Positions 7,725 to 50,469 are shown, numbered from the stretch's first letter. The stretch: DNA of 64,000 bases from Desulfuromonas sp. AOP6 (GCF_009731355.2 NZ_AP022810.1:2136001-2200000), one strand, 5' to 3'. Made by a program: numbers and translations. The notes: a model not told the origin generated them from the sequence alone.

Positions 7725-7728
7725 ATCG

Positions 7729-8852: not shown

Positions 8853-8864
8853 GGTCTACGCACC

Positions 8865-9428
8865 TCATTTCGCGGGAGATTGTTTGGCGGGCATCTGTGC
8901 TCTGCAGGAGATCTCAAACTTGTGCAGCACATTTTCCTTGTTGCGAGTCTGCTCCACAACCCTCAGCTCCACATTTTGATAGTAATCAGAGGATTCAAGC
9001 TTTCGCATAAATTGCGCCACGGTCTCTTCCGTAAGACTGATCCCGCTCATAACAATACTGCCGTTTGATTCCGAATAGCTTATGATCCACATTTTTTCAG
9101 GAATAGATAGACTCAACTCATCGAGAAGACGCACAGGCCCGGTCTTTCCGTCGCTGAGTTTATCCAGTATTTCAAGTTTCTCCCGCAACTCCTGCTGTCG
9201 CTTCTTGAATTCGGCCACCTCGCCGATTTTCTTTTTCAAGGAGGCAATTTCTGCCTCTTTTTTGGAGATCAATTCCTTTTCGTCGCTAACCTTCGAAGAA
9301 ACCATGGCATAAAGCCCACCACAGGCCAGCAAGGCAATGAGCAAAGCCACGCCGAGTATGGCCAGCTGCCCCTTGACTATCTCCTTCTTTCTTGCGGCCT
9401 TTACGGGTAACAGGTTGATCCGTATCAT
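8865..9428 (-). CDS. pilN: Type IV pilus alignment protein PilN
   Basis: Partner of PilO in the inner membrane. The cytoplasmic N-terminus MIRINLLPVKAARKK carries the INLLP motif that PilM binds in characterised systems. It is followed by a transmembrane helix (about 21-46), a coiled coil (about 48-90) and a periplasmic domain beginning near LLDELSLSIPEKMWI. The ATG overlaps the pilM stop by four bases (ATGA), so PilM and PilN are translationally coupled. Confidence 0.96.
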   Translation of the reverse strand: MIRINLLPVKAARKKEIVKGQLAILGVALLIALLACGGLYAMVSSKVSDEKELISKKEAEIASLKKKIGEVAEFKKRQQELREKLEILDKLSDGKTGPVRLLDELSLSIPEKMWIISYSESNGSIVMSGISLTEETVAQFMRKLESSDYYQNVELRVVEQTRNKENVLHKFEISCRAQMPAKQSPAK

Positions 9429-21712: not shown

Positions 21713-21772
21713 AAATATCTCCCAAATTAATAATGTGTAAAAATTTGTTTACCTTCAAAAATACTGTTTTAA

Positions 21773-23616: not shown

Positions 23617-23719
23617 AATGATTACCTCACGGCCTTTCTCGCAACAATGTAGCCGATTATAGCGGTTTGGCAAGCAACTGACAATTTTTGTTTCATGCAG
23701 GTTAAAAAGACGTCGTCAC

Positions 23720-25351: not shown

Positions 25352-25359
25352 GTGCCTAC

Positions 25360-26577: not shown

Positions 26578-26604
26578 CAGTCCCCTCTTCTTCCTTTAAA
26601 TGAA

Positions 26605-27744: not shown

Positions 27745-27787
27745 AATTCGATCCGTTTCCTTTGGTATGTATCCATGACTCGCCGGT

Positions 27788-29485: not shown

Positions 29486-29585
29486 GAGACAGATGTTCTC
29501 CCGGGATGTCATTTTCCCTGAATTTTATTAAAAACAATTCCTCAAAAAAATTTTTATCTATTTGCTTAAGTGAGGTGCAACCTTC

Positions 29586-35120: not shown

Positions 35121-35657
35121 TTACCGAAAGCAGCTGCAGGCCCCGTCCCACCGAAGGATCGTGACCCGTCCGGTGCTGGAGTGACTGACCCCTACGGCAA
35201 AAGTCCGCTCATCCTCAGCGCCCTTGCTCCTGCCAAGACATAGGTAGAGACTGTTACTTGAACCATCCGGGTTAAAGGAGAGGTAGCGGGGCGAATCATC
35301 CTCGGCACAACTCTGGGTATAGCGCAAGAAGAGCCCTTCTGGCAGAGGATAACCAGCCGCCAGGTCTTCCCACTCCGAACTGTTTCTCGACAGATTGCCT
35401 AGCTGAAAAATGAAAGAGGGATTCTGCCCTGAGGCCGGCTGCTGAGACACGAATTTGACCCGGTATTCCCGATGGTGGGCGACAGCGGCCGCCCTGGCCT
35501 CGCGCAATGCCCCGGCGATAGCACGCGCGGCGGAGCGGTTTTCCTGCTTATCGAGCCAGGCTCCATAGATGGGCAACGAAACAGTGAGCAGTCCCGCGGT
35601 AACAGCCAGTGACATAATCAGTTCGAGCAGGGTGAATCCTCGTGATGAATAGTACAA
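35121..35657 (-). CDS. FimT/GspH-type minor pseudopilin (outside the terminator)
   Basis: Prepilin-like protein with a very short leader, MYYSSRG, then FTLLELIMSLAVTAGLLTVS. Glu5 is present, and the remaining ~150 residues are of the GspH/FimT type (AIAGALREARAAAVAHHREY, then SSTGRVTILRWDGACSC). The TTG at 35657 has GGAGGG five bases upstream and gives the short leader; the longer reading from 35684 would insert extra residues with no ribosome site. It lies beyond the terminator at 35738-35760, so it is probably expressed separately. It is a close paralogue of the gene at 35789-36385. Confidence 0.82.
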   Translation of the reverse strand: MYYSSRGFTLLELIMSLAVTAGLLTVSLPIYGAWLDKQENRSAARAIAGALREARAAAVAHHREYRVKFVSQQPASGQNPSFIFQLGNLSRNSSEWEDLAAGYPLPEGLFLRYTQSCAEDDSPRYLSFNPDGSSNSLYLCLGRSKGAEDERTFAVGVSHSSTGRVTILRWDGACSCFR

Positions 35658-35737
35658 AGAGCCCTCCAGGATTATAAATTTCAAATCGAGGAGAAATCTA
35701 AACGAATTTTAATATTTTTCAAGCCATAAATTAAAAA

Positions 35738-35760
35738 GCCCCAACTACGTTAGTTGGGGC
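35738..35760 (-). terminator. Terminator of the first minor-pilin cluster
   Basis: Hairpin GCCCCAACTA / TAGTTGGGGC (10-bp arms, three-base loop) followed on the minus strand by T5, about 30 bases after the stop of the FimT-type gene at 35789. It would end the transcript that begins before pilV at 42843. Confidence 0.85.
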
Positions 35761-35788
35761 AGGAGGAAACCAGACGGTGGTAGGCTCT

Positions 35789-36385
35789 CTATTGAAAGGA
35801 TGTCGATGAGGCATTCCATTTGCGAACCTTGAAAGCTCCGGTGGTGGGAGAAACCATTTCGATCAGAAGTTTTTTGCGGTCATTCAAGGTGGTTATGGAG
35901 CTATCGCCGTCAATGATGCAAATACCGCCGAGGTCGGAGCCAGAAGTGCTTACGACAGAACTTGCACTGGCTCCTCCGCTGGGGAGGAAGAGTACCGACT
36001 GGTCATCGTCGTTGAAGGCACAGCTGGAACGATAGCGAATATCGAGATTTTCCGAAAGAGTGACGGGCGTCTCCATTATCGGCCAACTCGAGCTGTTATA
36101 GGAGAGATTGCCCCCCTGCAGCTGCATGGTCGAGGGCGCCTGGGGACTGTCGGGAGCCGCATTGAAAACCACCCGATATTCCCGATGCTCGGCAATGGCC
36201 CGACTGCGGGCCTCACGAAGCAGCGCGGTGACAGCCTGAGCTCCTTCCCGGTACTTGGCGTTGCGAAGCCAGTCCAGATAATAGGGGGTGGCGATAGTCA
36301 TAAGGACCGATATCATGGCGATGACCACGATCAGTTCTGTCAAGGTAAAACCGGCGTTACGAGGCTTGCGTCCAGTTGATATCAT
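35789..36385 (-). CDS. FimT/GspH-type minor pilin
   Basis: Prepilin with leader MISTGRKPRNAG and N-terminal helix FTLTELIVVIAMISVLMTIA (Glu5 present). A GspH/FimT C-terminal domain follows, with ALLREARSRAIAEHREYRVV and a Ser/Asp-rich beta region. At 198 residues it is typical of FimU/FimT proteins that prime pilus assembly. The ATG overlaps the stop of the lipoprotein gene by four bases. It is the last gene of the cluster starting at 42843. Confidence 0.88.
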   Translation of the reverse strand: MISTGRKPRNAGFTLTELIVVIAMISVLMTIATPYYLDWLRNAKYREGAQAVTALLREARSRAIAEHREYRVVFNAAPDSPQAPSTMQLQGGNLSYNSSSWPIMETPVTLSENLDIRYRSSCAFNDDDQSVLFLPSGGASASSVVSTSGSDLGGICIIDGDSSITTLNDRKKLLIEMVSPTTGAFKVRKWNASSTSFQ

Positions 36386-37329
36386 CGGGAGAATTCCAGG
36401 TTGAGGTCATATTCCTGAGATGAGCGCCGGCCTTCTTCGTCTTCAACGACAATGCGAAAACGCCATGTCCCCTCTTGCGCGCCGGTTACATCCCAGGTCA
36501 AAACACCAGTTTCTTCGTCGATGACAGCTCCTGCCGGCCCCTCTTCAAGCTCATAGCGGAAAGGATCGTCATCGGGATCGTACGCTTCAACCTGATACAC
36601 ATAGCGCATACCGGCAAAATCGCCGGGGGGGTCGGAGACGATCCGCGGCGGTCCATTGGGAATACTCAACTCGGTGCCTTCAAAAACACGGCCCTCATCC
36701 TCACCGTCGAAGGGAACGACCTCGGCCCGAACAATATCCCCCCTCTGGAACTGATCCCCAGGCAGAACGGGGTCGTCCTGAAAAGAAAGGGGCTCGCCAT
36801 TGAGATACCATCGGTATGCGTAAGTAATGGTATCGCCGTCGGGATCAACCCCCTCGGGATTGAGCTCAATATCGACCCCCCTGAAGATATCAGCATTCAC
36901 GAAAGGAACGGCAATAATAGCCGGCGGCGCGTTGCCGATAGTCACTTCGGCAGAGACCTCCTGAGACATGTTCTGCACTGTCAGACCAACCACATCACCT
37001 TTGGCGGCACTGTGTGGTGGCAGCACCGCCCCCGTGGCCTCCAGCAGCTCGCCGTTTCTTTCCCAGGTAAACGTCAGTGTGCCCGCAGCCCCTTGCACCA
37101 GGGCTTCGATACTGTCGTTCACCGTGGGCGACTCAGGCAGCAGCCGCACCGTCATTTGGCCGCTCTCGCTCCCTGTAGCGAGCGCCCTGGCGGTATCGGC
37201 CCCCTGACTGGCAGCCTGCGGAGCGGTTTCGGGGGCGACAGCGGGCGTCCCTCCGGAATCACAGCCTCCCATCAGGAGAAAAAACAGAAGGCAGCCGATA
37301 TTCCATGAAATAACCTTGAAGTATTTCAA
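36382..37329 (-). CDS. Ig-like lipoprotein of the minor-pilin cluster
   Basis: A 315-residue lipoprotein: lipobox LLMGGC with acylated Cys23, a flexible Ala/Thr/Pro-rich segment (about 24-55), then three consecutive beta modules. The first two (about 55-235) resemble Ig-like or cadherin-like repeats with DPDGDTITYAYRWYLNGEP. The last (about 235-315) matches putative-Ig modules (VYQVEAYDPDDDPFRYELEE, IDEETGVLTWDV). No enzyme motif. It starts with TTG just after the pilY1 stop, with GGAG six bases upstream. Inferred role: an outer-surface binding partner of PilY1 or the pilus tip. Confidence 0.8.
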   Translation of the reverse strand: MKYFKVISWNIGCLLFFLLMGGCDSGGTPAVAPETAPQAASQGADTARALATGSESGQMTVRLLPESPTVNDSIEALVQGAAGTLTFTWERNGELLEATGAVLPPHSAAKGDVVGLTVQNMSQEVSAEVTIGNAPPAIIAVPFVNADIFRGVDIELNPEGVDPDGDTITYAYRWYLNGEPLSFQDDPVLPGDQFQRGDIVRAEVVPFDGEDEGRVFEGTELSIPNGPPRIVSDPPGDFAGMRYVYQVEAYDPDDDPFRYELEEGPAGAVIDEETGVLTWDVTGAQEGTWRFRIVVEDEEGRRSSQEYDLNLEFSR

Positions 37330-40300
37330 TTACCACTCCTTCCAGTAAATCTGAAATATGGTGCCGCCCGAAACGGGATTTTCGCTGCAGAGGCCACCGC
37401 CGCAACCGATCAGCAGCGTGGCATCACCACTCGGAGGCATCACCACAACCAGACCGGAGGGGATACCGATGCCGAGAGCAAGGGAACGGTCTTCCTTGCG
37501 AAGCACATCGTCGACCTCGTTGAGAGCACGCGTATTGCTAACGGAGGTGGGGTCATCCACATCATTATAAGGATAAAAGTTCAACACCGCCTCGCCGGTT
37601 TTGTAGTCTACCGCATAAAGGCGCGAAATGCCAAGGTTACCTACCTCGCAAGGGTCGGTGGACAACGCCGAAGGGGCCGTGGGCATATAGGTCGTGTAAT
37701 AGGCCACCTTGTTGAAAATCAACGGCGAGGCCAGCACCTTTTCGCCGCCGTGCGTATTTTCCTCATTCAGCCGATCGAGATCAATATACCAGCCAAAAGT
37801 GGTATCCGCATTGAGGCTGTCCAGGATAGCCTGCTGGTCAGCGGCCGTCGTGGTTTCCAACTGCAATTCATTGCCGGTGACATCGATCAGGTTGCCATTG
37901 GTTGGATAATTGACTACCGTGGCATCCGTATTCTGCCCCATGTCCTTGACCATGTACAGGCGGTCGACAACAGCGGTATTGAGGGGATGGGCGCGGTCGC
38001 CGGTACCGAAGGCCACCATCCAGTAGCCCGGCTCCTGCACCACCGAGGGGCGATAGAATATCTTGCGTCCCTCGCTCGCCCCGGCCCAGAAGATGACGCG
38101 GCCGGTCCAGTTGGCCGGATCGGTGCTGCCCACGGAAAAGCGCCAGAGCCGGCCGCCCAGATCCCCGACATACAGCCGGTCGGCGTAGCCGTCAAAATCG
38201 GAATCGAGCACCGTGATGTCGGAGGGAATCGCGACCTTCAGCCAGGAGTCGTTTGAAGCCGTATAGCCCCAGATCTTGGTCGGGGCCGTCGGGATGGTCG
38301 GCACACCGCTGCTGTTCAGGGTCGCCACCTCGAAAGCGTAGACGCCTCTGCCTTTGGCGTCAGGTCGACTGGTCAAGGGACTGTTCGGGTTGACGTCAGA
38401 GGCGCTGGTGACGTTGCCTTCGCCCACCAAAGGATCGAGGGGATCAGGGAAATTGAAGGTCGACCCGAAGCGGCTGTCTTCCTCCTTGTCGTAGCCGGCG
38501 CCAATAAAAGCCACGACCTTGCGCTCGGTGCCGATCTTCATCAGGTGCATCTGCGGCTCACTCCAGGTCTGCCCCAGGTGTGGGAAGAGCACATTGCCGC
38601 TGCCATCAGTGGTGGTATTGTCAAACTTCCACAAAAACTTGGGATTCAGCGGATCCGTCACATCCAGGGCGTAGTAGGCGTTGCCGCCCCGACGCTGGCC
38701 GAAAACCAGAATAACCTTGTCGTCCAGCCCATTGTCGGTGACGCCAAAGGGATCCAGGTCGCCCGCCATGGTCTCCGCGATCGGGCCGATATTGCCATCG
38801 CCATCCTTGTCGTAGATATAGGCCACCGGCGAAGAATCCATATAATAAGGATGGCTGCCACTGGTCAGTTCCTTGAGTTCGGGGATGATGTTATCCGGGA
38901 CAAAAGACCACATCTCCTGTCCGTCCGCATCGCGGAAAGCGTGCAGCATGCCGTCGTTGCTGCCGACGAAGATCATGGTCTTGTTAACAGCGGGGTCCAC
39001 TTCATTGTCTTCGGTAAAAATATAGGAGTTGTAATTAACGATCAGCGGTTTGGAATGAAGGATATCCCCCATAACCCAATCGCGGGTATCGGTGGTACTG
39101 CCGTCTCCATTTTCGTCGCCCGTATCATAGCCGTAAATGTAATCGACAAGAGCAACGGCGTCGGCGGCGTCCTGCGTAGGATCCATGGAGGTGATATCGA
39201 GCATACCCGCCGTGACATTCGTGGTATTGAAACGGTTACTGGTGTGGGTGAGATCTGTCTCGGTGGTGAGGTTGGAGTAGAGCATGCGCGTGGAAAGATC
39301 CCGCTCGACCAACCCCTCGCCCACACCGCCATCTTCGACATCCCCGGCATCCGCGTTTAAACTCCAGTAGGACTGGGCGTTGAGCTTGAAGCCGCCGGAA
39401 GGAATGCCATCGCAGGCCAGGGTGGTATCGTTGGGATCAGGACAGGTGGCGACCTCCCCGTTCTGATCGACGATCTCGGACAGGGCGTTAATACCGAACT
39501 TTTTCAGATTACCGTGCCAGGACGTCCCCGAAATGGGTTTGAAGAAGCCCAGATAGACGCGGGAACCACTATAGGTCCTGTTTTCGGGGCTGGTCGGCAC
39601 CACCGGCGCGGTAAAGGCTGTATCGACCTCGGCCACGATATTGTTGAGGATGTTGTCGATCGCCGCGCTGACCTCATTGGTACTGCCGGCCTGGGCAAAA
39701 AGACCATGCCCATCTTTGGCGGCGTCCTTCAGAAGGGGGTTGGTGGGGGTGAACACCAGCAAGGTATGCGTGCGGATATTCTGCTTGTCTTCAAAAGTCA
39801 AGGAGAGATCCGAATCAAAGGCGTACTTGGCGATATCGTCCAGCATGTGGGTGCCGTTGCCGGATACATTGGCCTGGCACTGGTCACCGGCGTCGTCGTC
39901 GCCATCGTAGTCCCCGGCATAACTACCCACCGCCGGTAGATCTTTGCACATGTTGGGGTCGCTGTCACCGACGCTCTCGCCGTTGGTGATCAAGATCACG
40001 AAATTTTTATCGCAGGAGTTCTGGATGGGCGAATCCGGCACATAGGTATTGGAGATTGGGGTGTAACTGGAAGTGCGCTCCATGTCGAAATAAAAGCGGG
40101 CGTCAAAAAGGGATTCCGCCAAGGGGCGGCTGTTGCCGGGTGTCATCGCCACATAGTTGCTCAGCTCATCCAGTTTGGTGAAAAAGGCGGCACGGTTGGT
40201 ATCGTCGGAGAGGTCACTGACCGGGAAGGTGACCTGCCCGCCTTTGTTGTTATGACCGAACTCCATGATGCCGATGCGGATGGTGTTTTTCACCCCTTCT

Positions 40301-40989
40301 GCCGCCGACTTCAAGGCTCCGATAACGAGGTCGATCTGCGAGGTTGTTTCACCGGTGGCTGGCGGCGCCTCGTTGTAGTTAAGAATATTACCCAGGTAGG
40401 TCGTGCCGGCGCTGCTTTTGCCGCAGGTGCCGTCATTTTTGAGCTCCCAGCCGTCAGAGCCGGAAAAACGGCCACCTAAAAGGAGAGCATGCTGAGCGTC
40501 TTCACAGGTGACCTTGCTGAGAAAGTCATCGTAACTGCTGGCGGTGATATGGGCGACATAGTTGGACTGCCCGGTCAGCTTGTAAACCGTCCAGGTGCTT
40601 TTCGTAGCTGCCGGGACCGTGACGTCAGGGGTACCGTCGCCGTCGGTGTCATAGTCGTCTGGGTCTGGATAAATTTTGAACTGGGTCGAGTCTTGATCTG
40701 CCCAAGGCAGCAGGTCGGCATAGTTCAAATTGCCGTCATCGGGGGTTGAATCCTGCAACCCCAACGCATAGGGGCTGCCGGCGGCAGAGTTCCCCATGGT
40801 CGAGCTGTTGTCGATGATGAAGAGCAGATTAATGGGTTTGGCCACTTCGGCGTCCGGGTCGGCCGGAGGGCTGTAGGCGTAGATGGCCGAGTCGCCCAGA
40901 AAGGTGTCTGCCGCCACGGCGGACAAAGGGCAGACAGCCAGCAGCAACAAAAGCAGAAGCGTTACGATTGTATTTATAGGTCTAAACAT
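37330..40989 (-). CDS. pilY1: PilY1-type tip adhesin (first copy)
   Basis: A 1219-residue secreted protein with a signal peptide (about 1-27). The N-terminal von Willebrand A region carries the metal-ion motif DNSSTMG (LLFIIDNSSTMG), with a calcium-type loop DTDGDGTPDV nearby. The C-terminal half is the PilY1 beta-propeller (FVGSNDGMLHAFRDADGQEM, VYAFEVATL), with the calcium-binding loop DSDFDGYADRLYVGDLGG at about 925-945. PilY1 proteins sit at the pilus tip and mediate adhesion and pilus priming. It lies between pilX and a lipoprotein gene; GGAGG precedes the ATG. Confidence 0.92.
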   Translation of the reverse strand: MFRPINTIVTLLLLLLLAVCPLSAVAADTFLGDSAIYAYSPPADPDAEVAKPINLLFIIDNSSTMGNSAAGSPYALGLQDSTPDDGNLNYADLLPWADQDSTQFKIYPDPDDYDTDGDGTPDVTVPAATKSTWTVYKLTGQSNYVAHITASSYDDFLSKVTCEDAQHALLLGGRFSGSDGWELKNDGTCGKSSAGTTYLGNILNYNEAPPATGETTSQIDLVIGALKSAAEGVKNTIRIGIMEFGHNNKGGQVTFPVSDLSDDTNRAAFFTKLDELSNYVAMTPGNSRPLAESLFDARFYFDMERTSSYTPISNTYVPDSPIQNSCDKNFVILITNGESVGDSDPNMCKDLPAVGSYAGDYDGDDDAGDQCQANVSGNGTHMLDDIAKYAFDSDLSLTFEDKQNIRTHTLLVFTPTNPLLKDAAKDGHGLFAQAGSTNEVSAAIDNILNNIVAEVDTAFTAPVVPTSPENRTYSGSRVYLGFFKPISGTSWHGNLKKFGINALSEIVDQNGEVATCPDPNDTTLACDGIPSGGFKLNAQSYWSLNADAGDVEDGGVGEGLVERDLSTRMLYSNLTTETDLTHTSNRFNTTNVTAGMLDITSMDPTQDAADAVALVDYIYGYDTGDENGDGSTTDTRDWVMGDILHSKPLIVNYNSYIFTEDNEVDPAVNKTMIFVGSNDGMLHAFRDADGQEMWSFVPDNIIPELKELTSGSHPYYMDSSPVAYIYDKDGDGNIGPIAETMAGDLDPFGVTDNGLDDKVILVFGQRRGGNAYYALDVTDPLNPKFLWKFDNTTTDGSGNVLFPHLGQTWSEPQMHLMKIGTERKVVAFIGAGYDKEEDSRFGSTFNFPDPLDPLVGEGNVTSASDVNPNSPLTSRPDAKGRGVYAFEVATLNSSGVPTIPTAPTKIWGYTASNDSWLKVAIPSDITVLDSDFDGYADRLYVGDLGGRLWRFSVGSTDPANWTGRVIFWAGASEGRKIFYRPSVVQEPGYWMVAFGTGDRAHPLNTAVVDRLYMVKDMGQNTDATVVNYPTNGNLIDVTGNELQLETTTAADQQAILDSLNADTTFGWYIDLDRLNEENTHGGEKVLASPLIFNKVAYYTTYMPTAPSALSTDPCEVGNLGISRLYAVDYKTGEAVLNFYPYNDVDDPTSVSNTRALNEVDDVLRKEDRSLALGIGIPSGLVVVMPPSGDATLLIGCGGGLCSENPVSGGTIFQIYWKEW

Positions 40990-41004
40990 AAAGAACCTCC
41001 GCTC

Positions 41005-41511
41005 TTATTTGGGAACGATGCGCGCCACCTGGGCTTCGATGCGCGACGTGGCCCTTGAGGGACCTTCGGCCGTGACGTTGATGGTGTAAAAACGCGACTG
41101 GAAATAGGTCGGATCAGAACCGCTGCCCGGCGGCAGTGGCCCGGTGGTCAGAAAACGCACCTCATTGACGGCATCGGTTTTCAGGTGGCTGTTGGGCGTA
41201 TCGGCAGCGATCGCCGTGGCATGAGTGCCATCGAGAGTTACCGCGCCTGCCCCGATGGTTGAATAGATATTCTCACTGACGGTGGCGTAGGTAATGGCTC
41301 GCTCCGCCGCATAGAAAGCCTGCTGGCTGGCGCGGTAGTTGCGTGAAATACTCAATTCGGTATCGGTGGTATTCAGGGCCATGACGCCAAGGAGGCTCAT
41401 CAGAGCCAGCATGACCAGAGCGATGATCAAGGCAGCGCCGCGCTCATTGCACAGGCTTCGGCCCCTGCCCTTGCCACAAAGATTGATTTTCAGGAAGAAC
41501 AACTTCTTCAT
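41005..41511 (-). CDS. pilX: PilX-type minor pilin (first copy)
   Basis: A 168-residue protein with a long basic leader ending in LCNERG and a hydrophobic helix AALIIALVMLALMSLLGVMA. It lacks Glu5, as is usual in PilX/GspK-type proteins, and contains the family pattern NTTDTELSISRNYRASQQAF followed by YAAERAITYA. The ATG at 41511 has GGGGAG nine bases upstream; the longer reading is not used. It is followed by pilY1 15 bases later and preceded by pilW. Confidence 0.87.
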   Translation of the reverse strand: MKKLFFLKINLCGKGRGRSLCNERGAALIIALVMLALMSLLGVMALNTTDTELSISRNYRASQQAFYAAERAITYATVSENIYSTIGAGAVTLDGTHATAIAADTPNSHLKTDAVNEVRFLTTGPLPPGSGSDPTYFQSRFYTINVTAEGPSRATSRIEAQVARIVPK

Positions 41512-41536
41512 AAACAGAGACTCCCCATAAAAAACC

Positions 41537-42409
41537 CTAGCGATTTCGCAAAGTGACAACATTGGTCAGGCTTCGTGTTTTCACGTCGCCCTGCACATTG
41601 GCTTCGCCCGTCACGGTGACCCGCACGGCTCTGATATTCCAGCGGTCCGTACCCGTGACAGTGGTCAGGGTGCTGCCGTTCTCCATCAGATATTCATACT
41701 CCAGGCCGGTGACGCCATTGACCAGGTTGGCCCCCACCTGCCTTTTGGCGGTGATCCGCTGAGCCGCACCACCGTTAATCTCCTTGAAAATCTCGAAATC
41801 CTTGAGATAAAAGGCAATGGTGCCCGGATGCGTACCCGAACTGACCACCATGCCATCACCCGCTTTGTACTGAATGCCCGGTGAGGCGCCGAAGCCCTCC
41901 AGGGTCACGGTACGGGCCGTCCTGTTATTGCCGACCACGCGGAACAGGGCTGCGTACGGCTGCTCCTGACTGGGGGGCCGCAGAATGCGCACGAGGTCTC
42001 CAGTTGTGGCCTCCGCAAAAAAGAGGTCGACCATGTCGGAGGACCCCAGGGTGAAGGTGGCCTCGGTGTCGCCCGCGGCAATCGGTAAGTCGCTGTCGAT
42101 ACGGGCGGCACGGCCGGAGGGACTGGCGGTATTCATGATGAAGGCGTCCCCCTCGACGGGAAAATTGGGCGCGTTCTGGATGGGGGGATCATCGAAGGCC
42201 ACCACAAAACCGGCCATGCGGATATCGCGCACCATCTGATCCATGGCTATACGCAGGTTCTGCTGCAGCTCGACCACCTCATCCTGGGTGGTGGCGGTAC
42301 GCTGGGTGGTCAGGTAAAGGCTGTAGATGGCCATGGTGACAATGCCGAGGAGCGCCATGGTGACCAGAATTTCAATCAGGGTAAAACCCCTGTGATCAAC
42401 AGATTTCAT
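41537..42409 (-). CDS. pilW: PilW-type minor pilin (first copy)
   Basis: A 290-residue prepilin: leader MKSVDHRG, then FTLIEILVTMALLGIVTMAI with Glu5. It has the PilW pattern QDEVVELQQNLRIAMDQMVR followed by RDIRMAGF and a long beta domain. The frame extends 64 codons further upstream with no prepilin features; the ATG at 42409 overlaps the pilV stop (ATGA) and has AGAGG upstream, so it is the start. Minor pilins PilV-W-X together form the tip-priming complex that recruits PilY1. Confidence 0.9.
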   Translation of the reverse strand: MKSVDHRGFTLIEILVTMALLGIVTMAIYSLYLTTQRTATTQDEVVELQQNLRIAMDQMVRDIRMAGFVVAFDDPPIQNAPNFPVEGDAFIMNTASPSGRAARIDSDLPIAAGDTEATFTLGSSDMVDLFFAEATTGDLVRILRPPSQEQPYAALFRVVGNNRTARTVTLEGFGASPGIQYKAGDGMVVSSGTHPGTIAFYLKDFEIFKEINGGAAQRITAKRQVGANLVNGVTGLEYEYLMENGSTLTTVTGTDRWNIRAVRVTVTGEANVQGDVKTRSLTNVVTLRNR

Positions 42410-42843
42410 ATGCGCCTCTTGAAACCAACCAAAGTAATAGGACGATTGAGCACGCCGCCGACCTGGGTCACCGTTACCTGCACGCGACTGACATTGACGA
42501 CGCCATCGTAGTCGGCGTCGATGGAATAGGTCGCCGAAAAGGTGCCACCACCTTCGACGGCAAGGGTGGCTTGCGGCGAGCCGACGGTGCCGAAATTCCA
42601 CGCCAGGTCAGTGGCATCCGCAGCGAAGACCGGCCGGGAACCATCCCAGGAAAGCACCTCTTCCAGGATACCTTCGGCCACGGCCGTCCCGGAAGTGACG
42701 ATATTGGCCGTCGAGTTGCCCCGAATCGAGGTGATCTGCATGCCGGCGACCGCCAGCAGACCGATGGCGAAAATAGTGACGGCAATGAGCAGCTCGACGA
42801 GGGTAAATCCTGCCTGCCCCTTCGTAAAGCGAGATCTCTTCAT
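42406..42843 (-). CDS. pilV: PilV-type minor pilin (first copy)
   Basis: A 145-residue prepilin: leader MKRSRFTKGQAG, helix FTLVELLIAVTIFAIGLLAV with Glu5, followed by MQITSIRGNSTANIVTSGT and AEGILEEVL typical of PilV. A GGGAG site precedes the ATG at 42843, and 29 extra upstream codons are rejected. It is the first gene of a six-gene run (pilV-W-X-Y1-lipoprotein-FimT), with a sigma-54-like promoter about 55 bases upstream. Confidence 0.88.
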   Translation of the reverse strand: MKRSRFTKGQAGFTLVELLIAVTIFAIGLLAVAGMQITSIRGNSTANIVTSGTAVAEGILEEVLSWDGSRPVFAADATDLAWNFGTVGSPQATLAVEGGGTFSATYSIDADYDGVVNVSRVQVTVTQVGGVLNRPITLVGFKRRI

Positions 42844-42896
42844 GTTTCGAATCTCTCCCAAATAGGTGAAAACTTTATTAGACATTTCAAAAAACT

Positions 42897-42912
42897 TGCA
42901 AAAAGTATACCC
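42897..42912 (-). promoter_or_regulatory. Sigma-54-type promoter of the first minor-pilin cluster
   Basis: Minus-strand GGGTATACTTTTTGCA keeps GG and TTGC with exactly ten bases between GG and GC. The predicted start near 42886 lies about 43 bases before pilV. The first base differs from consensus (G for T). The remaining 42913-43067 gap holds no gene; it has a CCGGG/CCCGG hairpin near 42987-43004. Confidence 0.6.
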
Positions 42913-43067
42913 CCTTTCCTCCGCAGACACAACCCATGGCCATAGCAGGAAAAGGGGGCATATAAAGATGTCAACGGAATTGCAAGCCGGGCAAAAAACC
43001 CCGGAAAATGCCCTTAAATGTCACCGGACGTCAAAGATCTGACTAGCATGCAAAAGATCATCGGCGA

Positions 43068-43433
43068 TCAAGGCAGCTGCCCATCGAAGAGATAAACCCG
43101 GAAGACCTCACCCTCTTTGTTTATCTGGTAGCCGACCTGAGTCCCCGCGGTGAACAGAGTGCGGGCGACATATCTCCCCTGCTCGTCGTGAAAGGTCACC
43201 CGCGGAGACAGGCGCTTGATCGAATCGTTGATGATCAGACGTTCCGGCTCAATCTGATCGATCACGCCAAAGCCATCGTAGGAAAGAGGGACACGGCGGC
43301 CGTCGGCGGCCATAGCCGCACTCCCGACCAGGGTGAGAACAAAAAGCAGCGCCGCCAGAGTGAGGCCCAGCCTCCTCGGAAAAAACTTATGGGAAGCAGT
43401 CAGTACGGTCTTGTCTTTTATCCACTTGAGCAT
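43068..43433 (-). CDS. Small exported protein in PilY2 position
   Basis: A 121-residue protein with a basic N-terminus and a signal or anchor segment (about 22-43, LGLTLAALLFVLTLVGSAAM), then a compact beta-type domain (YDGFGVIDQIEPERLIINDS, followed by VTFHDEQGRYVARTLF and INKEGEVFRVYLF). No enzyme motif. It lies 42 bases after the second PilY1 gene, the place PilY2 holds in Pseudomonas, and has an AAGGAG site. The PilY2 link rests on size and position and is weak. Confidence 0.65.
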   Translation of the reverse strand: MLKWIKDKTVLTASHKFFPRRLGLTLAALLFVLTLVGSAAMAADGRRVPLSYDGFGVIDQIEPERLIINDSIKRLSPRVTFHDEQGRYVARTLFTAGTQVGYQINKEGEVFRVYLFDGQLP

Positions 43434-43475
43434 ATCAACACTCCTTTTTTGTCATTGCTGACGACATGCGCCTCA

Positions 43476-46400
43476 TCAACGCTCCAGCCAGTAACTCATC
43501 CCTATGCGTTCGGCATCGACGTCTTCTTCTTCGATCACCCCGGTGGACGAACTCATGTACAGGCGTTCCACCCCGTTCCCCAGGCGGATGATCTTTGGCA
43601 TGTGCAGCATGCCGGTGAAGGACTTGCCCGTAGGCGCCACATAGACGGGATCATCGACCGTACCGATATTGATCAGATCATCCGGCGAACCGATGCGGAA
43701 CTGGGCATCATCCAGGCGCCCTCCGCTTTCCGCGTCAATGACGTAGAGGAAGGAATCGCCGCCGCCCGAGCAGGGCGAGGTATTGGGGACGAAGGAGACG
43801 ACGAATACCCGTCCATCACGGATGAGAAAATCCTTGATCGCCCTCTCTCCTTCATACGGTGCCGTATTGGGAAACCTGACAAACCAGCCGGCATGGGCGG
43901 CCGGATTGGGCTGCTGATCGTCGATGGTGATGAAGCCATCCCCGTTGACATCGCTGTTGTTGGTCGAATCGTTGTCCCCATCGACGATATCAGCCGCCGT
44001 TGTCCAGTCAATGAGATGGTTGCTGAATGTCCTGTAGGTGGCGGTATCCTGATAGGCAATATTCCGGACATCGATGATGGTCTGCTGAAGCAGGGTCGCC
44101 CCGTTGCCGTTGGACAGGCCTCCCGTGGTCGTATTAAGACTGCCCAGATACTCCAGGTCATCGGCGTCGTCACCGGAATCCCAGATGCCGTAAATCCCTT
44201 TAGGGGAAGCATCGGCGCGATCCGTCTCGCCCAGGAACTTTCCGGTACCGAAAAGGACCAGGTAGCCGTGCTTCATGGGATGGCGCATGACATCGGGCTT
44301 GGCGGTGATCGCCTCCCCGCCAATATTGACCAGCGGTTGCGGACTGGTACCGTCATGGAAGGCGACAGTCCATGCAGCCGCATCGTTCGCGGTCAGGTCG
44401 AACTTCCAGAGGTTGCCCTTAAGATCGCCGGCGTAGACGTAATCCGCCCGGTTGTCATTATTGACGTCAATGACCGAGGGGGTGGACAGACCGTTGTCAG
44501 AAGCAACACCCGTCGCAATTTTGCGAATGACATTGCCATTGAGATCCATCACATACAACATGGCCTGCCCATTGACACTATTGTAGCCGTTGCCGAAAAT
44601 AATGACCCACTCGTGATCGGCATTGCTCGAATTGGAGCGAACAATATAAGCCTGGCTGTACGTGTAGCCGAGATCGTCGTCCGGCGAGGTGGCGGGATCG
44701 GCAGGATACTCCCACTCGACGATCGGGGCGACAGCCAAGGCTTCATCGGAGGTGGCGCCAATCGAGCCGACATTGGCGATATTCAGGGCATAATACCCCT
44801 TGCCCCCCTTGCCGAGCCCACCGATCAACAGCGTCTTGGTAGCGCTGATACGGCGGGCATAGGGCGTCAGGTCGACATAGAACTTATGCTGATAATCGGG
44901 ATCGGTCAGATGGTGGAGGTTTTCGAAAACCAGGTTGGGAACATAGGAGAAACGCTCCCGCCCCGTTTCTGAGTCAAACGCATGCAGCATGCCGTCATTG
45001 CCGCCGGCATAGACGGTTCCATTGAAGTACATGGGGGATGAATGAACGATATCCCCGAGCACCCGAGTGCGATAGCGGAAACCGGTGGCGGTGACGTTGT
45101 CGGTGCGCCCGCGCAGAAACTCGATCATATTGCCGGCCGTCGTCGCGTCCGCGTCCAGGAGGGTACGTTGCCCGGCACTGATGTTGGCGCTGCGGAAAGG
45201 GACACCGGTGGCGGTTTCCGGGTTGTAGGTAATAACTTTGCGGTCGTTCCAGTCGATGGTCTGCAGGACATGGGAAGCCTGCCAGAGAATTTCTCCCACC
45301 CCGGAGCGCACGGCGCCGCTGATGGGGTCAATGGGATAGGCGATGACATCGCCGACCCACTCACCGGTCTGATAGCGAGCCTGGTACAGCACGGTATCGG
45401 TTTTCAGTTCTTCACTGTTGACCGAAACGGAGTTGCCCGAGGCGGGGTCGGTCAGATCAGTGACGATGCTGGAAACGGCCTCGATCATCTCTTCCGGGTT
45501 CATGGCGCTGAAAAAGAGACCGCGACCATTGACGGCGGCATGCCACATGTCATCGATCTTGGCGCTGTCGCTATAAGCCGGGTTGGGCCAGGCAGGGCGA
45601 GGGGTCCGGTCATCCAGGAAACAGGTATTTTCTTCGTACAGGGGCGAGTCCTCCACCCCATCGTCGTTGATATCGGCGAAATCGATTGAACCCTGTACAC
45701 CGAAAGATACCGTGTAGGTGACCAGATGCTGATAATTGGCCTGGTCGCATGAATTGGTGGGAACGACATTGGACAACGTGCTGGAGAGGTCGTTTTTATA
45801 AAACTTCATGGCGATGTCCGCCAGCGTATTGGAATAGGAATCGGCGTAGGGGGCACCCAAGGTGCCATCCTGGTTGCCTACGGAACTGAAAGAATCGTTA
45901 TAGTAGCCATCGGTCATGACGATGGCGAAGGCTTTCTGGCAAGCGCCGCCATCGTCTTCGGCGGCATAAGGACTGCCGTCGACACCAGAGCTGCCACTGA
46001 TGCCGCCGTTATGATTGTCCCCCTGGTCAAAATAGCGGCCAACGTTGTAAAAAGCGGTGCGCAGCGGCGTGCTGCCGCTCGCGCCAACCTCATAGAGAAT
46101 GTCCAGAAGGGTACCGGTCTCGTTGACTACCGTAGCCGCCGTGGCGGTGGGAACAAACTTGACGGCGTCTGCCGCCGTACTCGTGCCGGTGCTGCCGGAG
46201 TGCCGATCGACCCGAACGCTGCCGGTGGAGCCTGCCGCGAAATCGTAATTGCCCAACAGAACCCAGTCACCGCACACATTGCTGCCCGAGTCGCTCTGGT
46301 CCTTGTAGAGGGTATCGGTACCACCGTCATAGGCTATGGTGTATTTGGCATTGCTGTCACCGGTGCTGTTGCAGTGCCACCAGGCATAGACATCGTAGTT

Positions 46401-48023
46401 GCCGCTGGTGTTGAGACTGGGAGTCCAACGGGCATAATCGCCTGAATCGGCCGTATAGCGGCTGTTGGCCTGATACGCCGTGTCCAGATAGCCGCTGGTG
46501 TCGTAATAAACCCAGTAACCATCCCATCGTTTCCTGCCCGTACTGACCCAATAGCGTCCACTGCTGGGGCTGTCCCAATCGCCATTTTCGTAGTATCCGC
46601 TATCGCCGTTGTCAACAACGCTGGTTCCCGCCGCCTCCTCAAGCTTAATGGGGAGTACCCGGGTGCGGGTTGACGAATCGTTAATGCTATAAATTCCAAC
46701 ATTTACCCGCGACATCTTTACAATCGAATGCGAAACAGCGGCCTTGGCCGTAAGCTCGCGGCGTCGGTAGAACGAAAACCAGTCGGCGAAATTCTGCAGA
46801 TCCTCGGCGTCGGTTTTGAATCGGCTGACACTGCCATCTTCATTGAAAAGATTGGGCCGGATGCTGTCGGGTGGCGTCTCCACCGGGGTGAGCAGGCTGA
46901 CCGCATCACCGGAGGCGGTCACTTCGTAATAATCCCGGCGATCCAGGGTTCCGTTCGAATCAGAATCGACGAAGTTGACGAGATAGATCCTCTCACCAGT
47001 GTCGAGTTGGCCATTATCGTCCGCATCGTCCCAAGTATAATAGTGGGCGTTGTTGATCCGCACCGTGGAAGGCATGCCGACCGGCGTGAACTTGACAGCG
47101 TCGGCCATGTAGGTGCTGACGCCGGAAAGCGTGGCCGCCAGGTGCACGGACTGGGCGTCGGAAGGAGACTGGGAGCGAAAATACCAGGTTCCCAGCTTAT
47201 ACCAGCCAGGTGACTTGTTCTGGTTCAGGGTGACCGTGGCCGTGCCAGCACCGTTATTGTAGGTCACCGTGTAATTGGCGGCCGTATCACGTGACGGGTT
47301 GTTGTCATTGATCCAGACCCAGACATCATAATCGCCATTGCGGGGGATCTGCGGCAGCCATTTGGCTTCCTGGGCCGGATCGACCACATTTTTCCAGTGA
47401 TAGTTATCCCCGATGCAATTGGAGGTACTGGTGCCCCAACCGGCCGAAATCACGAAATTGGGTCCGGGAACGTTATCGACAACGACCTCTTCCACGGCGG
47501 TCAGATTGGCTGTCGTGTATTCCAGCCGCAGATCAAAGGTCGGCGTGGCATTGTGGGGATTGGAGCGGGGCGTGCTGACATCGGCGTGGCTTTTGTTGGG
47601 CCAGGGTTTATAGTCGACGGATGGGTTGTAGTAAATCTTGTTGTAACCCGACCACTGGGATTTCCACTCCAGGCGCTCTGAACCAGTCAGGTGATAAGTG
47701 GTCCAGTAGGAGGAAAAGGTGTTGTCATGGCCTGGCGAGTAATGGGCCGGATCAAAGACATAGTAATGTCCGTCGAACAGGCCGTCTCCTTCAGAAGTCA
47801 TGAACTCCCAGTCCATACTGCCCGAGTCGTCGACGACGAACATGATGTTGGGCGCGGCCGAGGTGATGTTGGTGCCCATGGGAGTATCACTGATATCCAC
47901 CGACCAGGCTGGCAGGGCCGCAGACAGGAGGATTGCGAGGGACAGCGTCACGATGGACGACAACGAGGCTGTTTTCTTCAAAAAACCAAACACGGGTGTG
48001 TAAATCGCGGATGCATTCTTCAT
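43476..48023 (-). CDS. pilY1: PilY1-type tip adhesin with two golvesin-like modules (second copy)
   Basis: A 1515-residue secreted protein: signal peptide (about 1-41), von Willebrand A start with FVVDDSGSMDW, and the C-terminal PilY1 propeller (NGTVYAGGNDGMLHAFDSET) with the calcium loop DVNNDNRADYVYAGDLKG at about 1180-1200. Inserted in the N-terminal part are two related modules, about 178-308 and 468-625. Each starts with VVDN and ends with ADAVKF, and contains NGDYDVWVWINDNN or SGNYDVYAWW, as in golvesin/Xly carbohydrate-binding-like domains. The first PilY1 lacks these. It is preceded by CAGGAGG. Likely a tip adhesin with extra glycan-binding capacity (inference). Confidence 0.91.
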   Translation of the reverse strand: MKNASAIYTPVFGFLKKTASLSSIVTLSLAILLSAALPAWSVDISDTPMGTNITSAAPNIMFVVDDSGSMDWEFMTSEGDGLFDGHYYVFDPAHYSPGHDNTFSSYWTTYHLTGSERLEWKSQWSGYNKIYYNPSVDYKPWPNKSHADVSTPRSNPHNATPTFDLRLEYTTANLTAVEEVVVDNVPGPNFVISAGWGTSTSNCIGDNYHWKNVVDPAQEAKWLPQIPRNGDYDVWVWINDNNPSRDTAANYTVTYNNGAGTATVTLNQNKSPGWYKLGTWYFRSQSPSDAQSVHLAATLSGVSTYMADAVKFTPVGMPSTVRINNAHYYTWDDADDNGQLDTGERIYLVNFVDSDSNGTLDRRDYYEVTASGDAVSLLTPVETPPDSIRPNLFNEDGSVSRFKTDAEDLQNFADWFSFYRRRELTAKAAVSHSIVKMSRVNVGIYSINDSSTRTRVLPIKLEEAAGTSVVDNGDSGYYENGDWDSPSSGRYWVSTGRKRWDGYWVYYDTSGYLDTAYQANSRYTADSGDYARWTPSLNTSGNYDVYAWWHCNSTGDSNAKYTIAYDGGTDTLYKDQSDSGSNVCGDWVLLGNYDFAAGSTGSVRVDRHSGSTGTSTAADAVKFVPTATAATVVNETGTLLDILYEVGASGSTPLRTAFYNVGRYFDQGDNHNGGISGSSGVDGSPYAAEDDGGACQKAFAIVMTDGYYNDSFSSVGNQDGTLGAPYADSYSNTLADIAMKFYKNDLSSTLSNVVPTNSCDQANYQHLVTYTVSFGVQGSIDFADINDDGVEDSPLYEENTCFLDDRTPRPAWPNPAYSDSAKIDDMWHAAVNGRGLFFSAMNPEEMIEAVSSIVTDLTDPASGNSVSVNSEELKTDTVLYQARYQTGEWVGDVIAYPIDPISGAVRSGVGEILWQASHVLQTIDWNDRKVITYNPETATGVPFRSANISAGQRTLLDADATTAGNMIEFLRGRTDNVTATGFRYRTRVLGDIVHSSPMYFNGTVYAGGNDGMLHAFDSETGRERFSYVPNLVFENLHHLTDPDYQHKFYVDLTPYARRISATKTLLIGGLGKGGKGYYALNIANVGSIGATSDEALAVAPIVEWEYPADPATSPDDDLGYTYSQAYIVRSNSSNADHEWVIIFGNGYNSVNGQAMLYVMDLNGNVIRKIATGVASDNGLSTPSVIDVNNDNRADYVYAGDLKGNLWKFDLTANDAAAWTVAFHDGTSPQPLVNIGGEAITAKPDVMRHPMKHGYLVLFGTGKFLGETDRADASPKGIYGIWDSGDDADDLEYLGSLNTTTGGLSNGNGATLLQQTIIDVRNIAYQDTATYRTFSNHLIDWTTAADIVDGDNDSTNNSDVNGDGFITIDDQQPNPAAHAGWFVRFPNTAPYEGERAIKDFLIRDGRVFVVSFVPNTSPCSGGGDSFLYVIDAESGGRLDDAQFRIGSPDDLINIGTVDDPVYVAPTGKSFTGMLHMPKIIRLGNGVERLYMSSSTGVIEEEDVDAERIGMSYWLER

Positions 48024-48036
48024 TTTTACCTCCTGA

Positions 48037-48561
48037 TCAAAACCGACGACGGTAACCGACTTCCACTATGGACTGGCCCCTGAAGGCCCCTGTGGGATTG
48101 TCGTACAAACCGAAAACGCCATACTGATGAACCTGGCTGGCGGACATATCCAGAGACCCTCCGGCCGCGATACCCTCATAAACCACGGAAAATCGCGTGC
48201 GGCTGTCGATATCCGCCACGGCGGCCGTATCGTTGGCCGGATCGGCGTCACCTACAACCCAGTTTCCCAGGTTGGCCGCATCAAAATCGCTGTTCAGATT
48301 CAACCAGGCCGGCGGTGCCGCCGCGTCGGGAGCGATTTCATCGGAGGGCAGGCTCTCCAGCCGACTGGTCGCTTCCAGGGCCGACGCTTCGGCGAGATAG
48401 AAATTCTTCTTGACGATCCGGTCATTGCTGGCGATCTTCTGCTCGATCTCTGAAATATCCAGAGCCGAAATACCGATGATGGTGAGCAGCGCCATCAGCA
48501 GCAGGGCGATGAGCATGATGGACCCCCTCTGATTCTGCAGTATTTTCGATGATTTATTCAT
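48037..48561 (-). CDS. pilX: PilX-type minor pilin (second copy)
   Basis: A 174-residue PilX-like protein: leader ending LQNQRG, helix SIMLIALLLMALLTIIGISA without Glu5, then the PilX pattern LDISEIEQKIASNDRIVKKN and FYLAEASALEA. The ATG at 48561 has AAGG nine bases upstream; an in-frame TTG three codons earlier is not used. It lies between pilV and the larger pilY1. It shares layout with the copy at 41005 but is clearly divergent in its C-terminal part. Confidence 0.86.
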   Translation of the reverse strand: MNKSSKILQNQRGSIMLIALLLMALLTIIGISALDISEIEQKIASNDRIVKKNFYLAEASALEATSRLESLPSDEIAPDAAAPPAWLNLNSDFDAANLGNWVVGDADPANDTAAVADIDSRTRFSVVYEGIAAGGSLDMSASQVHQYGVFGLYDNPTGAFRGQSIVEVGYRRRF

Positions 48562-48591
48562 GGCAGACAACCTTCCTCACCCCTGTTGACA

Positions 48592-49011
48592 TCAGCGGAT
48601 CTTGATCGATTCGACAAAGTAATTCTTGGGTAGCAGCCGTTCTCTCCAGGTGACAATGACCCGGATAATTTTGGAGTTGGCGTCACGGTCAGCGATATTC
48701 CAATACACCATGAAGCTGTCATTCAGGGTGGACGGATTCTGACTGTGGTCGGCGGCTGGGCGGTCGTCAAGGCCGGCGTTGCCGTCCGCATCCGTATCGA
48801 CCAGGTCGGCATGCTCAAAATTCAGCGTCATCAGTTCTTCCAGTTTGCTTTCCGCCAGCAGGGCTCCTTCCGTCATCAGAGTCGCATTGACATTGTGACG
48901 GCTGGAAAAAAACTGCATGTTGGTGACGGCCAGAATGCCTATGACGAAAATAGACATGGCAAAGATCAGCTCGATCAGGGAGAATCCTCGTTCATTCAGG
49001 CGCATCTTCAT
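48592..49011 (-). CDS. pilV: PilV-type minor pilin (second copy)
   Basis: A 139-residue prepilin: leader MKMRLNERG, then FSLIELIFAMSIFVIGILAV (Glu5 present), followed by NMQFFSSRHNVNATLMTEGA and AESKLEELM as in PilV. GGGGC lies shortly before the ATG, which is only two bases after the pilW stop. In this cluster the order is FimU-W-V-X-Y1, with W and V swapped relative to the first cluster. Confidence 0.87.
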   Translation of the reverse strand: MKMRLNERGFSLIELIFAMSIFVIGILAVTNMQFFSSRHNVNATLMTEGALLAESKLEELMTLNFEHADLVDTDADGNAGLDDRPAADHSQNPSTLNDSFMVYWNIADRDANSKIIRVIVTWRERLLPKNYFVESIKIR

Positions 49012-49013
49012 GA

Positions 49014-49772
49014 CTAAAGCCCCATATTCCGAAGTTTGACAATGGTCGACACATCGCGGTAATAGAATCCATCGGCCGGGGAAAGTACCGTGTTGGCGAC
49101 CACGAAAGATCGGGAATTCACGTGCTCCGGCTGCGGGTTCTGGCTCCGGGCCACCAGCCAGATGCGCAGGGCCCGAATATCGGCCGCCCGGAACAGAATG
49201 CCGGTGTCGAGGGTATTGATGGCACCATCGCCATCGGTGTCGTCGTCGGAGGTGATCTGGTCATCGCCGTTGGCGTCGAGCTCAAACCAGTTCCCTCCGG
49301 GGGTCGGGATGGCCCAGTGTATACGCCCACCGGCGTCGGTATCGAGCTCCCCGTCGCCGTCCGCGTCGAAAGCGTAGGCAAATCCCAGGGCCACCACGTT
49401 TGCTGCCACAATATCGGCGGCCGTCGTCTGGCGCTCCAGATTGCCGCCAGCAAGGGCATAGCTGATCGACTCACCGGCATCGGCCACGTCCCAATCCTCA
49501 TTAAGGTCCATGGTAACCCTGATAGCGTTGATACCGGCATTGAGCACACCCGCGCTGGACTGGTGCGAGGGGTCGTAGCCGGTCATCCGCAGATCTTTGG
49601 CCATCATGGAAACGGCGGCGCGCAGGTTCTGCTGGATATCGACCACCTGGGTCTGCACGGTATAATCCCGGCTGTTGGTCACATAGAGCCCCAGCATGGC
49701 CGTACTGAAAATACCCACCAGGACCAGGGTCACCAGGATCTCGGTCAGCGTGAAGCCTTTCTGGTTCATCAT
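49014..49772 (-). CDS. pilW: PilW-type minor pilin (second copy)
   Basis: A 252-residue prepilin: very short leader MMNQKG, helix FTLTEILVTLVLVGIFSTAM with Glu5, and the PilW pattern VQTQVVDIQQNLRAAVSMMA followed by KDLRMTGYDP. The middle has a string of Asp-rich calcium-type loops (DADGDGELDTD, DANGDDQITSDDDTDGDG). AAGGA lies five bases before ATG 49772, and a longer upstream reading overlaps the preceding gene and is rejected. Confidence 0.89.
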   Translation of the reverse strand: MMNQKGFTLTEILVTLVLVGIFSTAMLGLYVTNSRDYTVQTQVVDIQQNLRAAVSMMAKDLRMTGYDPSHQSSAGVLNAGINAIRVTMDLNEDWDVADAGESISYALAGGNLERQTTAADIVAANVVALGFAYAFDADGDGELDTDAGGRIHWAIPTPGGNWFELDANGDDQITSDDDTDGDGAINTLDTGILFRAADIRALRIWLVARSQNPQPEHVNSRSFVVANTVLSPADGFYYRDVSTIVKLRNMGL

Positions 49773-49818
49773 GATTATCCTTCCTCGCCTCTTCACCGCC
49801 GGAAGAGTCAAACAGAGC

Positions 49819-50322
49819 CTATTGCTGGGATACGGCACCGGCCAGAGTGACGTTCACTGTGCGCTCCCGGGATTCGTTTTTCAGGGTAACGATGCCTGAA
49901 GACGAGGCAAATCCCCGGTTGTTGAAGGTGACGACATTGCCGAAATTGGTGGACGTCAGCGACACCCCTTTAGGCATATCCTGCTGAGCCAGAATCCGTT
50001 CACCGCCGTCGCGCAGACTATTTCCGGCGGTGCCGCCGCCGCTGCCGTCATCGATAAAGACCATGTAACTGCCCACGCCGCCAGCAGGGGTATACGCACC
50101 GCTGACAAAACGGGCCACGACATTGACATTACTGGAGACCGCGGTCGACTTGCCCAATCGCAGAGCCGACAACAGGTCGCGGCTTACCGCCGAAAAGGCG
50201 GCATTCTTCATCCAGAGCGACACGTTGGGGATCGCGATGGTCATGACTATAGCCAGCAGGGCCATGGCAATGATTAGCTCGATCAGGGTAAAAGCTTTTT
50301 CGCTGGAGACATCCACAGTCAT
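49819..50322 (-). CDS. FimU/GspH-type minor pilin (second cluster, first gene)
   Basis: A 167-residue prepilin: leader MTVDVSSEKA, helix FTLIELIIAMALLAIVMTIA with Glu5, and a GspH/FimU domain (DLLSALRLGKSTAVSSNVNV). Odd point: the residue before the cleavage site is Ala instead of the near-invariant Gly, which may lower PilD processing. GGGGAAG directly precedes the ATG. It is the first gene of the second minor-pilin cluster, with a sigma-54-like promoter about 45 bases upstream. Confidence 0.88.
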   Translation of the reverse strand: MTVDVSSEKAFTLIELIIAMALLAIVMTIAIPNVSLWMKNAAFSAVSRDLLSALRLGKSTAVSSNVNVVARFVSGAYTPAGGVGSYMVFIDDGSGGGTAGNSLRDGGERILAQQDMPKGVSLTSTNFGNVVTFNNRGFASSSGIVTLKNESRERTVNVTLAGAVSQQ

Positions 50323-50365: not shown

Positions 50366-50381
50366 AGCAAAGACCATTCCA
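50366..50381 (-). promoter_or_regulatory. Sigma-54-type promoter of the second minor-pilin cluster
   Basis: Minus-strand TGGAATGGTCTTTGCT fits TGGCACG-N4-TTGCW with GG and GC ten bases apart. The predicted start near 50356 is about 34 bases before the FimU-type ATG. A palindrome 76-88 bases further upstream would suit an activator site. Confidence 0.7.
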
Positions 50382-50456: not shown

Positions 50457-50469
50457 CGCAAATTTTGCG
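50457..50469. promoter_or_regulatory. Palindromic candidate activator site
   Basis: Perfect inverted repeat CGCAAA-T-TTTGCG, with another ACGCAA half-site at 50444-50449. It lies upstream of the sigma-54-like promoter at a distance usual for enhancer sites, in the 187-base gap next to the sigma-54 activator gene. Its binder is probably that regulator (inference). Confidence 0.5.

Follow-up and report, generated by a model that had tools for sequence, protein, structure and literature searches.

Two diverged minor pilin-PilY1 cassettes adjoin one type IVa pilus machine and a candidate tip switch in Desulfuromonas sp. AOP6

Introduction

Whether a single pilus machine switches between tips, and what determines the tip that it displays, is an open question outside Myxococcus. 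A 64,000-nucleotide stretch of the Desulfuromonas sp. AOP6 genome (NZ_AP022810.1:2136001-2200000; hereafter the window, with positions counted from its first letter) raises this question, as it carries two gene sets for minor pilins and a PilY1 tip protein, one directly following the other. A sequence-only reading of the window had proposed that the two sets diverged to serve different tips and that a cell could assemble pili with alternative tip adhesins. Our analysis leads us to consider it probable that one type IVa pilus (T4aP) machine works with two tip cassettes, each complete and self-sufficient, with a signal from an adjacent histidine kinase and response regulator (HK-RR) pair shifting the mix of tips.

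Two tip cassettes and a single pilus machine

Set A occupies positions 50322-43068 of the minus strand in the order FimU-W-V-X-PilY1-small secreted open reading frame (ORF), and set B occupies positions 42843-35789 of the same strand in the order V-W-X-PilY1-Ig lipoprotein-FimT; the reading frames of both are intact (Table 1). Gene calls, Pfam, and reciprocal matches confirm the gene orders and coordinates first proposed for both sets, including the differing order of W and V. Each set encodes a PilY1 propeller protein and four minor pilins with prepilin signals, as a tip (priming) cluster should. Among these pilins, W_B and both V proteins have N_methyl support and match curated pilin models only below cut-off; they are named and counted solely by gene position and by reciprocal best matching across the two sets. 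Glu5 is absent from PilX alone within each set, and both PilX proteins fit the Glu5-less PilX described previously (PMC7541494). The small secreted ORF of set A has no match in Pfam or NCBIfam, although the existence of a PilY2 model in those libraries was not established.

The complete 3.27-Mb genome contains only two PilY1 genes, those of sets A and B; the list of matches has a third entry, which is another segment of PilY1_B and adds no gene. The genome has one PilY1-associated T4aP machine. Other N_methyl pilin clusters, at 466-471 kb, 2.12 Mb, and 2.35 Mb, have their own GspE/PilB-type ATPases and lack PilY1. In gene content, AOP6 fits the M. xanthus type of multi-cluster arrangement, with a single major pilin and a single machine for more than one complete cluster.

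The sets are old and both are maintained

A PilY1 tree of 64 rows, built from the C-terminal regions of PilY1 from relatives, places PilY1_A in a clade of 16 rows (100/100) and PilY1_B in a clade of 34 rows (100/99). The minor pilin phylogenies that the sequence-only reading had called for point the same way for two of the families: cassettes of the FimU-W-V-X-Y1 type form one clade in the PilW tree (98/93), and the PilV tree recovers the same W-V group (0.908). The deep branches of the PilX tree lack resolution, and PilX affiliation is readable only for a mosaic cassette described below. On these trees, the two W/V orders correspond to two old classes of scaffold. We reject a local rearrangement as the origin of the W/V swap, given that W before V is the standard order of another, widespread scaffold class, and the trees and identities likewise reject the sets as recent duplicates. 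The interpretation of the sequence-only reading is thus supported in part (the divergence is ancient, both sets are maintained, their head modules differ, and the genome has one PilY1-associated machine), while the swapped gene order is better described as the order of a scaffold class.

We conclude from the ratio of nonsynonymous to synonymous substitution (dN/dS) that both sets are maintained: compared with the sister species, the pilins and PilY1 proteins of both have values of 0.05-0.22, indicating purifying selection. Base composition gives no support to a recent foreign origin of set A (G+C 0.569, versus 0.573 for set B). An old transfer of set A is possible and is compatible with the patchy distribution described below.

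Discordant histories of heads and scaffolds

PilY1_A and its closest relatives ride W-V scaffolds, and their sister head group rides FimU-V-W-X scaffolds; other W-V scaffolds (genomes G099, G101, G091, and G034) bear B-like heads. Constraining the heads of W-V cassettes to one clade cost 392 log-likelihood units (approximately unbiased [AU] test, p 1.5e-50) and constraining the PilW proteins of A-like heads to one clade cost 65 units (AU p 1.2e-4), p-values that are optimistic, as the groups were named after the first trees had been seen. The size of the 392-unit difference nevertheless leaves little doubt that the head and scaffold trees are discordant. A mosaic cassette at a separate locus, in genome G106, joins a PilW of the W-V class to a PilX and a PilY1 that both group with a different class. 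Judged by these gene trees, PilY1 heads have been exchanged between sets during evolution, and heads and scaffolds have reassorted.

Two different PilY1 heads

The two PilY1 proteins are, as had been claimed, very different: they share 24-28% identity, over parts of their length only, and their head modules differ. PilY1_A combines a metal ion-dependent adhesion site (MIDAS)-like DxSxS motif at residue 65, two Golvesin_C modules, and the C-terminal PilY1 propeller, and the PilY1_B model consists of a PilY1 propeller and a separate N-terminal region. Both heads retain the MIDAS-like motif, located around residue 60-65, and their propellers an acidic motif resembling a calcium loop. All six A-class heads that were scanned carry Golvesin_C, a jelly roll resembling carbohydrate-binding modules (CBMs), and each of 22 B-class heads lacks it. 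Both Golvesin_C modules of PilY1_A modeled well, with fold matches that include xanthan lyase and CBM6 carbohydrate-binding modules. PilY1_A thus has the CBM-like beta-sandwich modules of a carbohydrate-binding head, sugar binding itself being a prediction, and it is a reasonable guess from the models that the tip of set A binds sugar. At three loci in relatives (L073:10930-16695, L099:8879-13717, and L093:8584-14244), PA14 or MopE copper-binding-type modules replace Golvesin_C in the PilY1 head.

The Ig-domain lipoprotein of set B follows PilY1 directly, a placement that recurs across the order in B-class cassettes. By analogy, it may be a class-specific helper comparable to TfcP in the pilY1.1 cluster type of Myxococcus xanthus.

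A shared chromosomal slot

Many relatives share one gene order at this place: HK, RR, tip cassette(s), DUF1015, RNase R, RibF, AroE, and PilB. The usual occupant is a B-type cassette, V-W-X-Y1-lipoprotein-FimT, making set B the order-wide resident; set A sits between the conserved HK-RR pair and set B. Close relatives of PilY1_A have a patchy distribution: besides the sister species, they were found in three genomes belonging to a second family and a single genome belonging to a third. Of the 93 genomes that have a PilY1 match, at least 14 carry cassettes in tandem; these represent six family codes, and the count is a lower bound given that many assemblies are fragmented. The tandems vary in kind, comprising two B-type sets, mixed types, or three PilY1 genes in a row.

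A palindrome, a sigma-54-like site, and an adjacent regulator

Upstream of set A lies a 13-bp palindrome, CGCAAAATTTGCG, ~88 bp upstream of a sigma-54-like site; its core, YGCAAANTTTGCR, is found once in the 3.27-Mb genome. In 1.13 Mb of fetched sequence, 19 of 26 palindrome cores lie no more than 400 bp upstream of tip cassettes (0.7 expected). Order-wide, a PilY1 gene lies no farther than 8 kb from 18 of 78 palindrome matches (0.4 expected), a count that includes the loci that prompted the motif and draws on related genomes that are not independent. The palindrome and a sigma-54 site occur as a pair at 21 of 47 cassettes, compared with 2% of random windows, and the distances between them cluster near 65, 76, 88, 98, and 109 bp (best-fitting period 11.5, also 10.5 and 11). 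Such phased spacing suggests placement on one helix face.

The weights that rank the sigma-54 sites of the window were set after those sites had been seen; in a plain consensus count then applied to relatives, 28 of 74 regions upstream of cassettes scored 9 of 11 or more, versus 4.8% of random windows. The recognition helix of the adjacent RR is strongly conserved, usually LLEISLRxLxYKI, and differs from that of PilR. The simplest reading is that this RR binds the palindrome. Set A is predicted to have every element of an NtrC/sigma-54 operon, namely, a -24/-12 site, a phased palindrome, and an adjacent enhancer-binding RR. The region upstream of set B lacks the same pair: it has no palindrome, and its best promoter-like sequence is only the weak match GGGTATACTTTTTGCA. 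The predicted activating sequence and sigma-54 promoter of set A, absent before set B, favor separate control of the two sets.

We also considered that the palindrome might be restricted to the first cassettes of tandems; this holds in the window and the sister species and is not general. In G041, G042, and G044 (loci L091, L089, and L081), the terminator between the tandem cassettes itself contains the palindrome (GGCCATGCAAAnTTTGCATGGCC, then a T run), and it may double as an activator site. Sigma-54-like sites similar to that of set A also precede pilM (10545-10560) and pilA (22075-22090) on the minus strand; the three sites likely form a shared RpoN pilus regulon.

Weighing the explanations

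In the arrangement that we favor, with two cassettes serving one machine, each set would contribute FimU or FimT together with PilV, PilW, PilX, and a PilY1 head; these proteins would prime assembly of the filament and come to lie at its tip. Set B would be the resident cassette of the order, and set A a second class whose longer head carries two carbohydrate-binding-like modules. The RR would most likely bind the palindrome at 50457-50469 and activate sigma-54 polymerase at 50381-50366, and a signal from the HK would raise set A, and perhaps set B via read-through, shifting the mix of tips. Alternative tips in this cell are plausible on this evidence. A broader proposition seems to us rather doubtful as a whole, if worth stating: that the slot beside pilB is an order-wide exchange site, that PilY1 heads (in one mosaic, PilX with PilY1) were swapped between older FimU-PilW-PilV scaffolds, and that a dedicated HK and NtrC-type RR, acting via a 13-bp palindrome in phase with a sigma-54 promoter, pick the tip displayed by the single machine. 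Several observations weigh against the arrangement that we favor. No palindrome-sigma-54 pair is detectable at 26 of 47 cassettes, and some relatives have the palindrome before their second cassettes (G042, G044, and G112, with the second G045 site likewise before its second cassette), which suggests joint control there. The model of the N-terminal region of PilY1_A is poor outside the two modules and usable for these alone. No terminator was found between sets A and B, so transcription of set A may run on into set B.

Full read-through is the core of one rival explanation, a single 15-kb transcription unit that starts at the sigma-54 promoter and ends at the terminator at 35738, with the sets always co-expressed and yielding a fixed tip mixture or a mixed complex. 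The shared strand, the 224-bp gap, and a strong terminator located only after FimT_B are consistent with such a unit, but the sister species has an exact copy of the separate promoter-like region upstream of set B, several relatives have terminators between their tandem cassettes, and the full pilin complement of each set makes a joint complex unnecessary; we judge a single unit unlikely. Purifying selection as strong on set A proteins as on those of set B, together with the possession by set A of a sigma-54-like site and of the genome's only palindrome, speaks against the idea that the cell relies almost entirely on one set (probably B) and seldom expresses the other. That idea has a precedent in the undetected cluster_2 of M. 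xanthus (PMC7541494) and would suit the patchiness of the set A class in the order, yet we find it improbable. Finally, one set could belong to a different filament system of the cell, either MSHA-like or type II secretion, since the genome holds further N_methyl pilin clusters with PilB/GspE-type ATPases of their own; those clusters, however, have their own pilins and no PilY1, both sets adjoin pilB/T/C, and the cassettes hold their slot across the order, making this assignment very improbable indeed.

Comparison with known systems

The fimU-pilVWX-pilY1 operon of Pseudomonas aeruginosa has the same gene content as each set here, with a W/V order from which set A differs, and the C-terminal propeller of its PilY1 (3HX6) is matched by sequence and by fold. 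That operon is linked to FimS-AlgR (PMC5979040), rather than to an adjacent NtrC/sigma-54 system as here.

M. xanthus clusters 1-3 (PMC7541494, PMC9109919, PMC13190605) resemble the present arrangement in combining several FimU-PilV-PilW-PilX-PilY1 clusters with one major pilin and one machine, and in having heads that differ N-terminally. There, three clusters share one pilus and two are independently sufficient (PMC7541494), and the NtrC-like regulator HsfA shifts the balance of two PilY1 heads (PMC9109919). In AOP6, by contrast, the sets stand in tandem at the core pil locus with the HK-RR pair adjacent, whereas HsfBA is encoded elsewhere in M. xanthus; PilY1_A carries Golvesin_C, not DUF4114, and set B has an Ig lipoprotein, not the cytochrome TfcP. 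Multiple FimU/PilV/W/X/PilY1 versions in Geobacter, and one set in Pelobacter carbinolicus, were noted in 2012 (PMC3543383). Geobacter and AOP6 are alike in pairing a geopilin-type PilA with more than one minor pilin/PilY1 version, but the main text of that study says only that the versions differ and describes no slot, class structure, or regulation. Xylella fastidiosa has two minor pilin operons with PilY1 paralogues and opposing mutant phenotypes, as well as FimT paralogues with different roles (PMC9956873); unlike here, its pilEVWX/fimT/pilY1 sets lie in two separate genome regions, with no tandem slot. Alternative tips are therefore a known idea. In the open-access literature we found no report for these bacteria of the palindrome or head swaps, of tandem sets in a common slot, of the palindrome combined with a sigma-54 site and an RR, or of head/scaffold reassortment.

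Features of the locus and its surroundings

Table 1. Positions in the window of the two tip sets, their control region, and the pilus machine genes
Feature	Position	Strand	Evidence or remark
Set A FimU (GspH-type minor pilin)	49819..50322	-	PF12019 2.4e-12; N_methyl
Set A PilW	49014..49838, likely start 49772	-	PF16074 PilW 1.7e-7; reciprocal best match with W_B
Set A PilV	48592..49011	-	TIGR02523 below cut-off; best match V_B, 34% over 119 aa
Set A PilX, without Glu5	48037..48570	-	PF14341 PilX_N 8.3e-10
Set A PilY1, 1515 aa	43476..48023	-	PF05567 7.6e-48; PF25275 6e-38, two stretches; 3HX6 6e-58
Set A small secreted protein, PilY2 position	43068..43433	-	Position; signal-peptide-like N terminus
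Set B PilV	42406..42843	-	TIGR02523 1.2e-10, below cut-off
Set B PilW	41537..42430	-	N_methyl; best match W_A, 45% over N-terminal 77 aa
Set B PilX, without Glu5	41005..41562	-	PF14341 PilX_N 1.7e-12
Set B PilY1, 1219 aa, MIDAS-like motif, no CBM-like module	37330..40989	-	PF05567 5.9e-14; model best match 3HX6
Set B lipoprotein, Ig-like domain, lipobox LMGGC	36382..37329	-	PF05345, PF17963
Set B FimT	35789..36385	-	PF12019 3.4e-4; N_methyl
Extra FimT	35121..35684	-	PF12019 2e-6
Cognate sensor HK	51874..53382	-	PF02518, PF00512, PF00672
NtrC-type RR upstream of set A	50510..51877	-	PF00158, PF00072, PF02954; conserved at tip cassettes
Palindrome CGCAAAATTTGCG, candidate upstream activating sequence	50457..50469	-	Sole YGCAAANTTTGCR in genome
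Sigma-54 -24/-12-like site TGGAATGGTCTTTGCT before set A FimU	50366..50381	-	Identical in sister species G108
Promoter-like GGGTATACTTTTTGCA before set B	42897..42912	-	Weak sigma-54 or sigma-70 -10 match; identical in G108
Intrinsic terminator after set B	35738..35760	-	10-bp stem, then TTTTTAATTT
PilR, PilS, PilC, PilT, PilB	22231..29512	-	
Short geopilin-like major pilin PilA (PilA-N), 76 residues	21773..22003	-	Sigma-54-like site upstream at 22090-22075
PilM and four genes in PilN, PilO, PilP, PilQ positions	5073..10483	-	PilM_2 1.8e-85; N-Q by order and length alone

The stray FimT-type gene that the sequence-only reading had pointed out is present and is a paralogue of FimT_B (33-35% identity over the full length). 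It occupies the same place in the sister species G108, and in the window the terminator parts it from FimT_B. At 21326-22003, the 76-aa PilA is directly followed by a 128-aa ORF with a signal-peptide-like start in a PilA-C-like position, resembling the split geopilins of Geobacter. Between pilM and pilA (14954-21297) lie ABC-2 transporter, UbiA-like, PMT/TPR, and glycosyltransferase genes that possibly serve pilin or surface glycosylation. An Rfam scan of the window for riboswitches returned nothing at the gathering threshold.

Significance

The discordant head and scaffold trees indicate that, over evolution, PilY1 heads have been workable on more than one minor pilin scaffold. The slot likely holds a dedicated genetic switch for tips: a candidate switch, comprising the HK-RR pair, the palindrome, and the sigma-54 site, stands within a single genome next to two complete tip sets whose heads differ, and this makes tip choice experimentally accessible. 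Of most value for follow-up are the regulatory element and the head swaps. In bacteria with a geopilin-type PilA, such tip sets could separate the adhesion role of the pilus from its electron-transfer role.

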